From Flavobacterium sp. SUN052 (lineage in GTDB: Bacteria > Bacteroidota > Bacteroidia > Flavobacteriales > Flavobacteriaceae), in assembly GCF_028867935.1 (NCBI RefSeq), contig NZ_JAPQNS010000022.1:1-64000 (forward strand): a DNA stretch of 64,000 nt, written 5' to 3'. The notes beneath the pieces were generated by a model. The model saw only the letters and a list, made by a program, of their open reading frames with translations, had not been told where the DNA came from and did not search any database. Every line of letters begins with the position of its first letter. Position 1 is the first letter of the stretch. Shown here piece after piece: positions 1 to 48,399 of this stretch. A program made the position numbers and the translations under genes.

Positions 1-372
<372 letters not shown>

Positions 373-46320: not shown

Positions 46321-47364
46321 TTATTCGTCATATCCAAACCGCTTCAGGGCGCGCTCTTTGTTGCGCCAATCGGGTTCTACTTTGACAAATGTTTCGAGGA
46401 ATACTTTTTTGTTGAAGAATCGTTCCAGCTCTTCGCGAGCCATAATGCCCGTTTTTTTAATCATTTTGCCCCCTTCTCCGAGCAGAATAGCCCGTTGAGT
46501 AGGTCGTTCTACCAGAATTTCTGACGAAATAATAATCATGTCGTCGCGCTCTTTGAAACCCGTAACAATCACCTCCGAACTGTAAGGAACCTCCTTTTTG
46601 TAATTCAGAAAGATCTTTTCACGGATGATCTCTGAAGCAAAGAACCGCTCTGGCTTGTCGGTTAGTTCATCTTTCGGAAAGAACGGCGGATGATGAGGCA
46701 GTCGCGTAATGATTCCGTCGAACAGTTTGTTGATGTTGAACGCGTTCAGGGCCGAGATGGGTATGATCTGGGCGGCCTGAAAGTGTTCCTGCCAATGCGC
46801 TATTTTGGCCTCGACTTCCTCGTGTGTGGCCAAGTCGATTTTGTTGATCAGCAGAATAACCGGAACGTCGGTCTTTTGTAATCGCTGAAGAACGTCGTCT
46901 TCGTCGTGTTGCTCGTAAATATCCGTTACGAACAAAATCACATCCGCATCTTCGAGCGAGCCCCGCACAAAACTCATCATCGACTCATGCAGCTTGTACA
47001 TGGGTTTGATAATGCCCGGCGTATCTGAGTAAATCAGCTGAAACTCTTCGCCCTCATGCGTTCCGTTCAGGATACCCATGATGCGATGCCGCGTTGTTTG
47101 CGCCTTCGAGGTGATAATAGACAATCGCTCCCCAACCAATTGATTCATCAAGGTTGATTTGCCCACATTAGGTTTGCCCACTATACTGACAAACCCCGCC
47201 CGACCGGGATACTGAGCCGCAGCAATGGCGGCCAAATCGGGTGCCAGCTCATCGTCTGACAGGTCATTCTCTGTCGAATCGTTACCCGGAAGGTTAGTTT
47301 CGGGTAAATCGACACCGGGCGACGTATCGTCCGGAAAATTATTTTCGTTTTTAGATGATCCCAT
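46321..47364 (-). CDS. era: GTPase Era with acidic N-terminal extension
   Basis: Binds 16S rRNA near its 3' end and couples ribosome assembly to growth. The GTPase domain has SIVGKPNVGKSTLM (P-loop), DTPGI (G3) and NKID (G4), followed by a KH domain with LGEGGKMIKKTGIMARE. The first ~50 residues are an acidic, Pro/Asp-rich extension (for example DLPETNLPGNDSTENDLSDD) absent from E. coli Era. The gene leader on the minus strand contains a hairpin with a U run (see the attenuator-like entry). der follows 86 bp downstream. Confidence 0.93.
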   Translation of the reverse strand: MGSSKNENNFPDDTSPGVDLPETNLPGNDSTENDLSDDELAPDLAAIAAAQYPGRAGFVSIVGKPNVGKSTLMNQLVGERLSIITSKAQTTRHRIMGILNGTHEGEEFQLIYSDTPGIIKPMYKLHESMMSFVRGSLEDADVILFVTDIYEQHDEDDVLQRLQKTDVPVILLINKIDLATHEEVEAKIAHWQEHFQAAQIIPISALNAFNINKLFDGIITRLPHHPPFFPKDELTDKPERFFASEIIREKIFLNYKKEVPYSSEVIVTGFKERDDMIIISSEILVERPTQRAILLGEGGKMIKKTGIMAREELERFFNKKVFLETFVKVEPDWRNKERALKRFGYDE

Positions 47365-47453: not shown

Positions 47454-47484
47454 TTTGATTTTCCGGAAAACCCTACTACTTTTG
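47454..47484 (+). promoter_or_regulatory. Promoter of the tRNA-fMet gene
   Basis: TTTG (47454-47457) and TACTTTTG (47477-47484) are separated by 19 nt, a canonical Bacteroidota primary-sigma promoter. The predicted start is near 47491, only a few nucleotides before the mature tRNA 5' end at 47497. Confidence 0.75.
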
Positions 47485-47496
47485 CACTCCCAACAA

Positions 47497-47862
47497 CGCG
47501 GGATGGAGCAGTTGGTAGCTCGTTGGGCTCAGCAATGCCACATCAGTTGAAGATTCAGAAAACGCACTGTTTCTGAGTTGCGAGTCGAAAGATTCAGACG
47601 CTATGTGACGGGCAGCGTAGTCAGGAATGATTACGTGTATCTTGCCAAATTCGGGGAAGCTGGTTGTGCGGTAATCCCGAGCCAAGCCAAAGCGTAAGCT
47701 GCGGAAGGTGTAGAGACTGAATGGTAAGCACCCTAAGTTCGGGTAACTGAAACGGGTGAAGAGACAGTCCAGACTACAAATTACTGCAATCGGCAGTAAG
47801 CAACGAAAGTTGTAGTAGTAAGCATAACCCAAAGGTCGCTGGTTCGAGTCCAGCTCCCGCTA
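47497..47862 (+). tRNA. Initiator tRNA-fMet (CAU), split by a group I intron
   Basis: Two exons, 47497-47529 and 47823-47862, join to a complete 73-nt initiator tRNA. The 5' exon gives positions 1-33 and the 3' exon 34-73, with anticodon CAU in loop CUCAUAA. Initiator marks are present: mismatched C1-U72, three G-C pairs (G29-G31 with C39-C41) closing the anticodon stem, and A11-U24 in the D stem. The T arm is GCTGG-TTCGAGT-CCAGC. CCA is not encoded, as is common in this phylum. A canonical promoter precedes it. The intervening 293 nt is a group I intron; the splice points could slide by up to two bases (a CA repeat at the junction), and U33/C34 is the choice that fits group I rules. Confidence 0.95.
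47530..47822 (+). ncRNA. Group I self-splicing intron in the tRNA-fMet anticodon loop
   Basis: A 293-nt intron between U33 and C34 that ends in G, as group I introns do. Core helices can be assigned directly: P3 CTTGCC (47641) with GGTAAG (47723); P4 TCGGG (47651) with CCCGA (47676); P7 GACTG (47715) with CAGTC (47765); P8 CACCC (47729) with GGGTG (47754); P9 ACTAC (47773) with GTAGT (47815). A stem TTACTGC/GCAGTAA and a GAAA-capped CAAC/GTTG stem lie inside P9. The core reads closely like the Anabaena tRNA-Leu intron (AAUUCGGGGAA, CCCGAGCCAAGCC, GGUGUAGAGACUG, AGAGACAGUCC), so subgroup IC3 is likely. A P2-like stem CGTAGTC/GATTACG precedes P3. I could not place P1 with the usual U-G pair at the 5' splice site. 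It has no internal reading frame. Confidence 0.9.
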
Positions 47863-47869
47863 CTAAGCG

Positions 47870-47900
47870 AAAGGTCACTGAGAAATCGGTGACCTTTTTT
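47870..47900 (+). terminator. Terminator after the split tRNA
   Basis: AAAGGTCAC (47870-47878) pairs with GTGACCTTT (47889-47897) with a GA-rich loop, followed by TTTTTT. It separates the tRNA from the endonuclease gene. Confidence 0.82.
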
Positions 47901-47934
47901 GTTTATTTGGGCTTTTAAACCCCATCCCATCCCT

Positions 47935-48399
47935 GTGTTAACAAAACAGAAAGGTGATATTGCCGAACAGGCTGTTATACTAAAAGCACTCCAACTAGGT
48001 TTAGGTGTTTGTAAGCCAATTGGCGACCGAATGCCTTATGATTTAGTTTTTGACGTTGACGGACGACTACTAAAAATCCAAGTCAAAAGTGCCTGGTTTG
48101 ATGAGAACCGAAGTAATTACGTGATCGACACGCGCCGAACAAAAACGAATCGACGGCAAATGCTCCGTTCAACGTATTCTTCAGATGATTTCGATTTTGC
48201 CGTTGCTTATATTGAAGCATTGGGAGTCTTTTATGTAATTCCTGTCGACTGTTTTATCAGTTATGGCTCCGAAATCCATTTGGTGGAAGCAGAAAAGCGG
48301 CAACGACTGCCAAAGTCATCCGCTTATCGAGAAGCCTGGCATTTGGTTACAAATACTGTTATGTCGCCTGTTTCTCCAGTTGTTTTAGAGCAATTTTAG
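47935..48399 (+). CDS. PD-(D/E)XK homing endonuclease, I-Ssp6803I-like
   Basis: A 154-residue protein of the group I intron-associated PD-(D/E)XK endonuclease family, whose known member is I-Ssp6803I (150 residues), encoded inside the tRNA-fMet intron of Synechocystis. The motif is visible: TKQKGDIAEQAVILKA with the first Glu, then MPYDLVFDVDG with the metal Asp, then LKIQVKSAW giving the Q-x-K variant of (D/E)xK. YGSEIHLVEAEKRQR follows as in the family. Such enzymes cut the intronless tRNA-fMet gene to start homing. I chose GTG 47935 (MLTKQKGD); an in-frame TTG at 47899 would add 12 residues. Here the gene lies 72 bp downstream of the tRNA, outside the intron. Confidence 0.85.
   Translation: MLTKQKGDIAEQAVILKALQLGLGVCKPIGDRMPYDLVFDVDGRLLKIQVKSAWFDENRSNYVIDTRRTKTNRRQMLRSTYSSDDFDFAVAYIEALGVFYVIPVDCFISYGSEIHLVEAEKRQRLPKSSAYREAWHLVTNTVMSPVSPVVLEQF

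Follow-up and report, generated by a model that had tools for sequence, protein, structure and literature searches.

The window examined here is a 64,000-nucleotide stretch of the Flavobacterium sp. SUN052 genome (contig NZ_JAPQNS010000022.1, positions 1 to 64,000). It contains an initiator tRNA gene (tRNA-fMet) that is interrupted in its anticodon loop. The locus raises the question of what the interrupting sequence is, whether the genome holds another initiator tRNA, and whether the endonuclease gene beside it belongs to the same unit.

The Split Initiator tRNA Gene

The split tRNA gene sits between era on the minus strand and an endonuclease ORF on the plus strand. The features of the locus are as follows.

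46321..47364, minus strand: era (GTPase Era), divergent neighbor, used as the synteny marker for empty-site alleles (NF000908, 356.8 bits)
47454..47484, plus strand: promoter-like TTTG-N19-TAnnTTTG, 12 nucleotides upstream of the tRNA (2 matches in 64 kb, 1.11 expected)
47497..47529, plus strand: 5' exon of tRNA-fMet, positions 1-33, ending in GGGCU (sequence; ARAGORN read of the joined exons)
47530..47822, plus strand: group I intron, 293 nucleotides, inserted between U33 and C34, last base G47822 (sequence; RF00028)
47823..47862, plus strand: 3' exon of tRNA-fMet, C34 to A73, CCA not encoded (sequence; ARAGORN read of the joined exons)
47869..47904, plus strand: intrinsic terminator 3' of the tRNA, ahead of the endonuclease gene (hairpin check and terminator scan)
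47935..48399, plus strand: putative free-standing PD-(D/E)XK homing endonuclease gene, 154 amino acids, GTG start chosen (PF11645, PDB 2OST)

The 5' exon (47497-47529) reads CGCGGGATGGAGCAGTTGGTAGCTCGTTGGGCT and the 3' exon (47823-47862) reads CATAACCCAAAGGTCGCTGGTTCGAGTCCAGCTCCCGCTA. When joined, they form a 73-nucleotide tRNA that ARAGORN identifies as tRNA-Met(cat). In the joined molecule C1 and U72 are mismatched, and three G-C pairs close the anticodon stem next to its loop. An unpaired C1/U72 and three such pairs are marks of the bacterial initiator tRNA. The coordinates given in the original prediction, and its exact exon joint to a 73-nucleotide initiator with C1-U72, hold by sequence and by ARAGORN. 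The promoter-like sequence upstream is of a form that we take to be the Bacteroidota -33/-7 type.

Two annotation tools at default settings report no initiator tRNA here, though translation would rest on one ribozyme. ARAGORN missed the unspliced gene and listed only a tRNA-Leu and a tRNA-Gly in the window, and Rfam at gathering thresholds gave no match at the unspliced tRNA-fMet locus.

The Intron

The Rfam model RF00028 (Intron_gpI) matches positions 47595-47790 with 46.9 bits and an E value of 9.3e-11 at a permissive threshold (the curated cut-off is 50). This is the best match of the genome, and the next has 22.2 bits. Control genomes gave RF00028 matches at E<=1 in 8 of 14 cases, above the curated cut-off in 2, so a weak match by itself would prove little. 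The window intron also matches 73 of the 74 introns of the set, itself included (blastn, E<=1e-3). In the covariance-model check proposed with the original prediction, the score lies slightly under 50; it is not taken as refuting the intron because the E value is 9e-11 and 73 of 74 introns match.

Covariation was measured in an alignment of 37 same-site introns, the window's included, drawn from 72 references; 20 loci, 12 of them verified introns, were left out by a core pattern before alignment. In the structure with P2 to P8 and the P9 region, 96.7% of cells are paired, versus 30.9-42.9% with partners slid by one to three columns, a control that somewhat favors the helices other than P7 because these were drawn by RNAalifold on the same alignment. 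Both sides change in 33 of the 51 pairs (shuffled mean 22.3), and none of 500 shuffles was as high on any of five covariation measures. The P2-P8 helices are at least 91% paired. P7, which RNAalifold cannot draw and which was placed by group I convention after the alignment had been seen, is 100% paired, with a double change in one row. The helices, named by group I convention, and the other intron features are as follows.

47539..47607, plus strand: P1 extension and loop, CACAU (47539-47543) with AUGUG (47603-47607), read from sequence
47608..47613, plus strand: guide sequence ACGGGC, read from sequence
47615-23/47628-36, plus strand: P2 (covarying core, 47615..47769)
47641-46/47723-28, plus strand: P3 (covarying core)
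47651-56/47675-80, plus strand: P4 (covarying core)
47660-61/47670-71, plus strand: P5 (covarying core)
47681-83/47707-09, plus strand: P6 (covarying core)
47687-91/47700-04, plus strand: P6a (covarying core)
47715-18/47766-69, plus strand: P7 (covarying core)
47731-33/47754-56, plus strand: P8 (covarying core)
47773..47819, plus strand: P9 region, 47773-77/47815-19, 47781-83/47797-99 and 47800-04/47809-13 (covariation alignment)

In P1, the GGC at 47611-47613 can pair with the exon end GCU (47527-47529). This places U33 opposite G47611 as a G-U pair, and the intron ends in G, as is characteristic of group I. The guide GGGC is invariant in all 37 rows. P10 is imperfect: ACG pairs only partly with the 3' exon CAU, with A35 opposite C, and many homologues have an AUGGGC guide with full pairing to CAU. 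The 366-nucleotide fold has a z score of -3.43 versus shuffles, and its minimum-energy fold differs from the group I core.

The 293-nucleotide insert is a group I intron, predicted to self-splice. It has the conserved P3-P8 core with the P7 pseudoknot, and the helices P3, P4, P7, P8 and P9 that had been paired by eye are present in the covarying structure. The group I reading is supported by the RF00028 score, the covariation in 37 introns and the exact exon joint.

In other copies of the intron, an endonuclease ORF is located in the 5' region that matches 47539..47607. A tblastn search with the neighboring endonuclease (E<=10) found no trace of it inside the window intron. An opposite-strand ORF of 118 codons over the intron (47476-47832) has no Pfam match and was rejected. 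Weak Rfam matches to MicX, STnc390 and CsrC fall on the terminator hairpin or the intron and were regarded as chance.

Copy Number of the Initiator tRNA

The assembly is 8.1 Mb in 38 contigs and is 99.99% complete. The original prediction held this to be possibly the sole copy and called for a search for a second. With the initiator 3' half and up to 3 mismatches, only the split locus was found in the organism's own assembly. In the assembly, 37 tRNAs were found (150 of 342 first-look candidates were scored), 34 of which were typed through 30 loci. Two typed tRNAs carry CAT. Both start with a paired G1, so they are of the elongator/Ile2 types and are not initiators. The three untyped tRNAs, at 82-87 nucleotides, fall in the length range of Leu, Ser and Tyr tRNAs. 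Neither tRNA-Ile(GAT) nor tRNA-Ala(TGC) is among the 34 typed, which suggests that the assembly may lack part of an rRNA operon. The contig starts within a 16S rRNA gene (window positions 1-372), so rRNA operons are probably collapsed.

Among the matches listed in the scan described below, no intact exact-pattern copy accompanies the verified split gene in 67 of 70 genomes, in a test that is blind to an intact copy that has diverged or that a bin lacks. The exceptions are G075, G100 and G106.

The Flanking Endonuclease Gene

The endonuclease ORF starts 72 nucleotides 3' of the tRNA, beyond its terminator. PF11645 (PDDEXK_5) matches with 161.9 bits over profile positions 3-137 of 138, which is nearly full length, and PDB 2OST matches with 209 bits over 137 amino acids at 67% identity. 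2OST, listed in the PDB as 'Putative endonuclease', is taken here to be I-Ssp6803I. The YDLVFD and QVK segments (motif YD...QVK) are unchanged relative to I-Ssp6803I and are presumably the catalytic residues of this type. NCBIfam models do not match the 154-amino-acid protein. At E<=1e-20, 1086 proteins match it, and in four listed Spirosoma species the NCBI name is 'group I intron-associated PD-(D/E)XK endonuclease'. The original prediction was right about the intron and overlooked this adjoining gene (47935-48399).

In three of five endonuclease pairs, dN/dS is 0.134, 0.038 and 0.053; dS is saturated in two pairs (window versus L143, pS 0.905 and pN 0.103). Given the low dN/dS, the flanking endonuclease is probably made and used. 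The stretch from the tRNA to the endonuclease gene gave no promoter match, a point weighed against the homing model. The predicted target site differs from the common cyanobacterial one (TTGGG/CCCAA versus TCGGG/CCCGA) by a compensatory stem change, which was counted against homing.

Carriage of the endonuclease as plasmid or phage cargo was considered and rejected. The endonuclease has no plasmid match. Phage matches comprise 26 records, none covering 80% of the query, with a best identity of 41%, and two distant viral contigs matched. No viral contig with the exact split junction was found.

Distribution of the Split Gene

A total of 84,980 species genomes was scanned for GCATAACCC plus the 3' half of the initiator tRNA. 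The base before C34 is U33 in an intact gene and the last G of the intron in a split one. At least 115 split-junction matches were obtained, many of them in metagenome bins, and 80 loci were listed. Verified split genes, with a 5' exon ending in GGGCT 193-695 nucleotides upstream, make up 70 of the 80 and fall under at least 17 phylum labels (NCBI ranks taken from record titles, with Melainabacteria apart from Cyanobacteriota). Among the matches listed, the 70 belong to Cyanobacteriota (16), Bacteroidota (13), Chloroflexota (9), Nitrospirota (8), Omnitrophota (7), Rhodothermota (4) and eleven more labels with 1-2 each. The same U33/C34 site, which is fixed by the scan design, and the homologous intron fit the cyanobacterial-type tRNA-fMet intron family. 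The original prediction knew of no published case in Bacteroidota, and no paper on a tRNA-fMet intron in Bacteroidota was found in the open-access literature; the 13 verified genes show that such an intron is no exception in that phylum.

Ten listed loci have no verified 5' exon (L066, L073, L077, L085, L089, L103, L105, L117, L134 and L135). They are contig ends, integration-type fragments and acidobacterial copies without a 5' half. In the acidobacterial metagenome-assembled genomes (MAGs) with L103, L105 and L117, a group I-like core is joined to the tRNA-fMet 3' half and the 5' half is absent in the stretch shown. These genomes also have 2-6 exact-pattern intact copies, and two of them have two such junctions each. 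The junctions may be a dispersed orphan of the intron. A further acidobacterial locus, L081, has a 5' exon, and its intron is the one of 74 unmatched by the window's. L073 and L135 (Bifidobacterium) have a tRNA-fMet 3' half without a 5' half, with an intact-type copy elsewhere in the genome, and look like integration-site fragments.

Two further observations concern the arrangement of initiator tRNA sequences. The Omnitrophica bin GWA2_52_8 (G062) has two split-junction initiator tRNA genes with different T arms, L066 and L098, the former ending before any 5' exon is seen. Tandem repeats occur 3' of tRNA-fMet in two different genomes, at L230 (98, 194, 290) and L200 (1643, 1799). They hold a 25-26-nucleotide tRNA piece that starts at C34, the intron site; the repeat pattern required CAT, and no 5' exon letters precede the CAT.

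Locations of the Endonuclease

Among the matches listed, the 70 verified loci can be sorted by the location of the endonuclease. A full-length match lies inside the intron in 15 (introns of 624-695 nucleotides) and pieces lie inside in 4. The endonuclease is downstream of the tRNA in 12, in one of which (L087) it is in two frames. L111 alone shows a third arrangement, with the gene on the other strand, upstream of the split tRNA. The remaining 38 have no endonuclease in view, and several of these end soon after the tRNA. Downstream copies among the matches listed are from Bacteroidota, Cyanobacteriota and Omnitrophota. The intron and endonuclease occur as a pair under at least 11 phylum labels.

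A protein search of cyanobacteria placed 5 of 15 endonucleases inside the intron and 10 downstream, four of the latter 784-1195 nucleotides away. The flank form is also present in Nostocales. Conversely, a locus from the Bacteroidota sample (L253) has the ORF inside the intron. All 24 downstream loci checked have a candidate hairpin of -14.5 to -24.6 kcal/mol and a T run 3' of the tRNA, the T run being 8 nucleotides off the stem at L104; the check left out L240, L241, L243, L248 and L251, among them the four at 784-1195 nucleotides.

A tree was constructed from 49 endonuclease sequences. The broken copies L064, L087 and L192 were left out, as were L220-L222 and L253. Flank and in-intron forms are interleaved in the tree, in which three rows have long branches. 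The downstream label, which was fixed by position though after an earlier tree had been seen, needs 4 changes, at least 3 of them forced, and a constraint uniting all flank forms in one clade is rejected (delta lnL 98.6, p-AU 1e-111). The flank position has been reached or left more than once in this tree, which is unrooted and so cannot give the direction of the moves.

One locus separates the two parts directly. Compared with the intron-less L190 and L189, L183 has two clean inserts, one of 262 nucleotides at U33/C34 and one of about 450 nucleotides behind the terminator. Between them, the 3' exon and terminator are conserved at 85-87%. On this comparison, the intron and the endonuclease in L183 are separate insertions.

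Linkage and Empty Sites

Linkage was measured in 222 genomes of the Spirosoma sordidisoli family, a set that does not include the genome of the window. The split junction is present in 15 genomes and the endonuclease in 13. Both occur in 12, the intron only in 3 (G097, G236 and G262), the endonuclease only in 1 (G138) and neither in 206, the last group including many genomes without an exact-pattern initiator tRNA (39 of 200 drawn had no match). Fisher's test, which ignores kinship, gives p 2.6e-16. G138 has an intact tRNA with era upstream as in the window, and its endonuclease frame is interrupted by a stop codon at residue 74 of the 166-residue query. In G173, which has a split gene, the endonuclease match is spread over two frames.

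None of the 15 intron-bearing family genomes has an intact copy by the exact pattern, which would not fit the T arm of G173. In three of the 15, the match lies 4.9-6.4 Mb into contig 1. In G172 (L219), the endonuclease is on another contig and is preceded by the last 17 bases of the tRNA, as read by eye. L185 similarly has its endonuclease apart from the split tRNA and preceded by apparent tRNA 3' end bases. Both arrangements would fit the insertion of an integrative element between the tRNA and the endonuclease gene.

In the cyanobacterial phylum, the endonuclease is present in 15 of 386 genomes; a split junction is in view in all 15, with a matched 5' exon in 14. The Bacteroidota-wide sample has it in 2 of 395 genomes (one being G096 again), so the pair is rare there. 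The family, cyanobacterial and Bacteroidota searches, which were centered on genomes known to carry the pair (G096 and G108), found 29 genomes by the endonuclease protein alone. A split junction is present in 28 of them, one of which (G100) also has a second match without an intron. The exception is G138, with its broken endonuclease.

In an Era tree of 27 loci, restricted to those with era in view and with L229 and L236 dropped as duplicates, the intron label takes 4 changes, of which no fewer than 3 are forced, versus 9.3 in shuffles. The intron persists without the endonuclease, because 38 of the 70 listed and 3 of the 15 family split genes show none.

Listed same-genus relatives match the exons only, more weakly than Spirosoma does, and played no part in the evolutionary comparisons. 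Their genomes are 1.8-5.7 Mb versus 8.1 Mb here. The window locus is closest to a Cytophagales MAG and to Spirosoma, and the same-genus label of the relatives may be wrong.

Comparison with Known Systems

The nearest known system is the tRNA-fMet intron of Synechocystis PCC 6803, in the same tRNA and with a homologous PD-(D/E)XK endonuclease at 67% identity. The available text of PMC1995217 describes I-Ssp6803I as 150 amino acids encoded in a 655-nucleotide intron. ORF-containing introns of this type, about 650 nucleotides long, were found repeatedly at this site, and their core is homologous to that of the window intron. The Synechocystis ORF is inside the intron, whereas the window has an ORF-less intron, with no endonuclease ORF inside it, a separate endonuclease behind a terminator, and a Bacteroidota host.

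Other cyanobacterial tRNA-fMet group I introns are described, in the portions of the sources at hand, from Gloeobacter (PMC8450103) and from Dermocarpa and Scytonema (PMC5733544); the same portions do not mention a flanking endonuclease. The tRNAscan-SE 2.0 paper, in its accessible part, reports fMet or Ile2 hidden by group I introns in 36 genomes and names Gloeobacter and Synechocystis (PMC8450103).

Collaborative homing in phages resembles the window in combining an ORF-less group I intron with a free-standing endonuclease, same-site cutting being inferred here from homology. It differs in concerning phage genes, whereas the locus here is a chromosomal initiator tRNA gene, the sole copy found. 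As reviewed in the available sections of PMC3984707, collaborative homing rests on two phages, and co-conversion of flanks is described. F-CphI of cyanophage S-PM2 is reportedly a free-standing endonuclease with an Endo VII motif (PMC6083498), in contrast to the PD-(D/E)XK enzyme of the window, which elsewhere lies inside the same intron. Bacterial group I introns are also described, in the text available, from tRNA-Leu(UAA), tRNA-Ile2 and tRNA-Arg (PMC3984707, PMC8450103, PMC4853749). Those are likewise group I introns in tRNA genes, but in other tRNAs. To our knowledge, they have no linked endonuclease of the I-Ssp6803I type.

Discussion

The sole initiator tRNA gene found in this assembly is interrupted after U33 by a group I intron that is predicted to self-splice, with a probable homing endonuclease encoded outside the intron, behind a terminator. 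On the sequence evidence, a two-part homing unit of intron and flanking endonuclease on a sole essential gene is the best reading, and a likely one. The ribozyme, the site and the enzyme are of already known kinds; what is new is the separate endonuclease behind the terminator of the tRNA whose intron it probably serves, on chromosomes of several phyla and in a gene of which usually only one copy was found. In the mostly open-access literature searched, no paper describing the flank arrangement was found.

Other explanations were weighed against this one. It is very improbable that the split gene is a dead relic whose intron no longer splices, while the unassembled portion of the genome holds an intact initiator. 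The assembly is in 38 contigs, the window starts inside a 16S gene, and an rRNA operon is probably at least partly missing, tRNA-Ile(GAT) and tRNA-Ala(TGC) not being among the typed tRNAs; yet the exons show no erosion and together make a canonical initiator tRNA, the ribozyme core is conserved in comparison with its covarying relatives, and 0 of 15 intron-bearing family genomes have an intact exact-pattern copy. The intron could instead be an old vertical passenger, with the endonuclease a bystander or recruited to another role (e.g., DNA repair or defence) and no longer homing. Three of 15 intron-bearing family genomes and 38 of 70 verified split genes among the matches listed lack an endonuclease (in the latter case, one in view), and intron-bearing loci cluster in the Era tree (4 changes versus 9.3 in shuffles), all of which favors it. 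The same tree nonetheless needs those 4 intron-state changes, at least 3 forced; in the family, genomes with both intron and endonuclease far outnumber those with just one of them; and the endonuclease is 67% identical to I-Ssp6803I with YD...QVK unchanged, its relatives having low dN/dS. We consider this explanation improbable.

If the flank endonuclease is ancestral, free-standing genes would have met an ORF-less intron by collaborative homing and later entered it, giving the Synechocystis type. Such a route is described from two phages in the available text of PMC3984707, and flank and in-intron forms are interleaved in the endonuclease tree. That tree is unrooted and gives no direction, however, and endonuclease pieces in the shorter introns L072, L093 and L118 suggest loss from inside, at least there. 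The flank-ancestral order is rather unlikely, though the least so of the three.

For the two-part homing unit, the following course may be envisaged. The primary transcript would start just upstream of the tRNA and end at the hairpin at 47869-47904. The guide sequence would hold the 5' exon, an external guanosine would cut, and U33 would be joined to C34. Because the ribozyme would splice itself out of the pre-tRNA, the insertion would be harmless, while every initiation event would depend on it. The endonuclease would be made from its own or from read-through transcription. On entry of donor DNA into another cell, the enzyme would cleave initiator tRNA genes that lack the insert, in their anticodon region. 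Repair templated by the donor copy would then introduce the intron along with the endonuclease gene, which at a distance of about 110 nucleotides can travel in the same conversion tract.

The intron destroys the target and would thus protect the host's only copy. As a tentative proposal, somewhat less likely than not, the intron may act as the protection and the endonuclease as the threat, in a chromosomal addiction-like pair on a sole essential gene. Such a pair would explain the split junctions in 28 of 29 genomes and the broken endonuclease beside the one intact tRNA. If this is true, a cell losing the intron would leave its single initiator tRNA gene open to cutting unless its endonuclease had already been inactivated, and recurrent shifts of the endonuclease between intron and flank would hold the two parts together through conversion tracts. 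The locus offers a chromosomal, recurring case in which an intron and its likely endonuclease stand apart beside one essential gene. In-intron, flank, empty with a broken endonuclease, and empty without one, its alleles provide natural pairs for the study of endonuclease gain, loss and regain.
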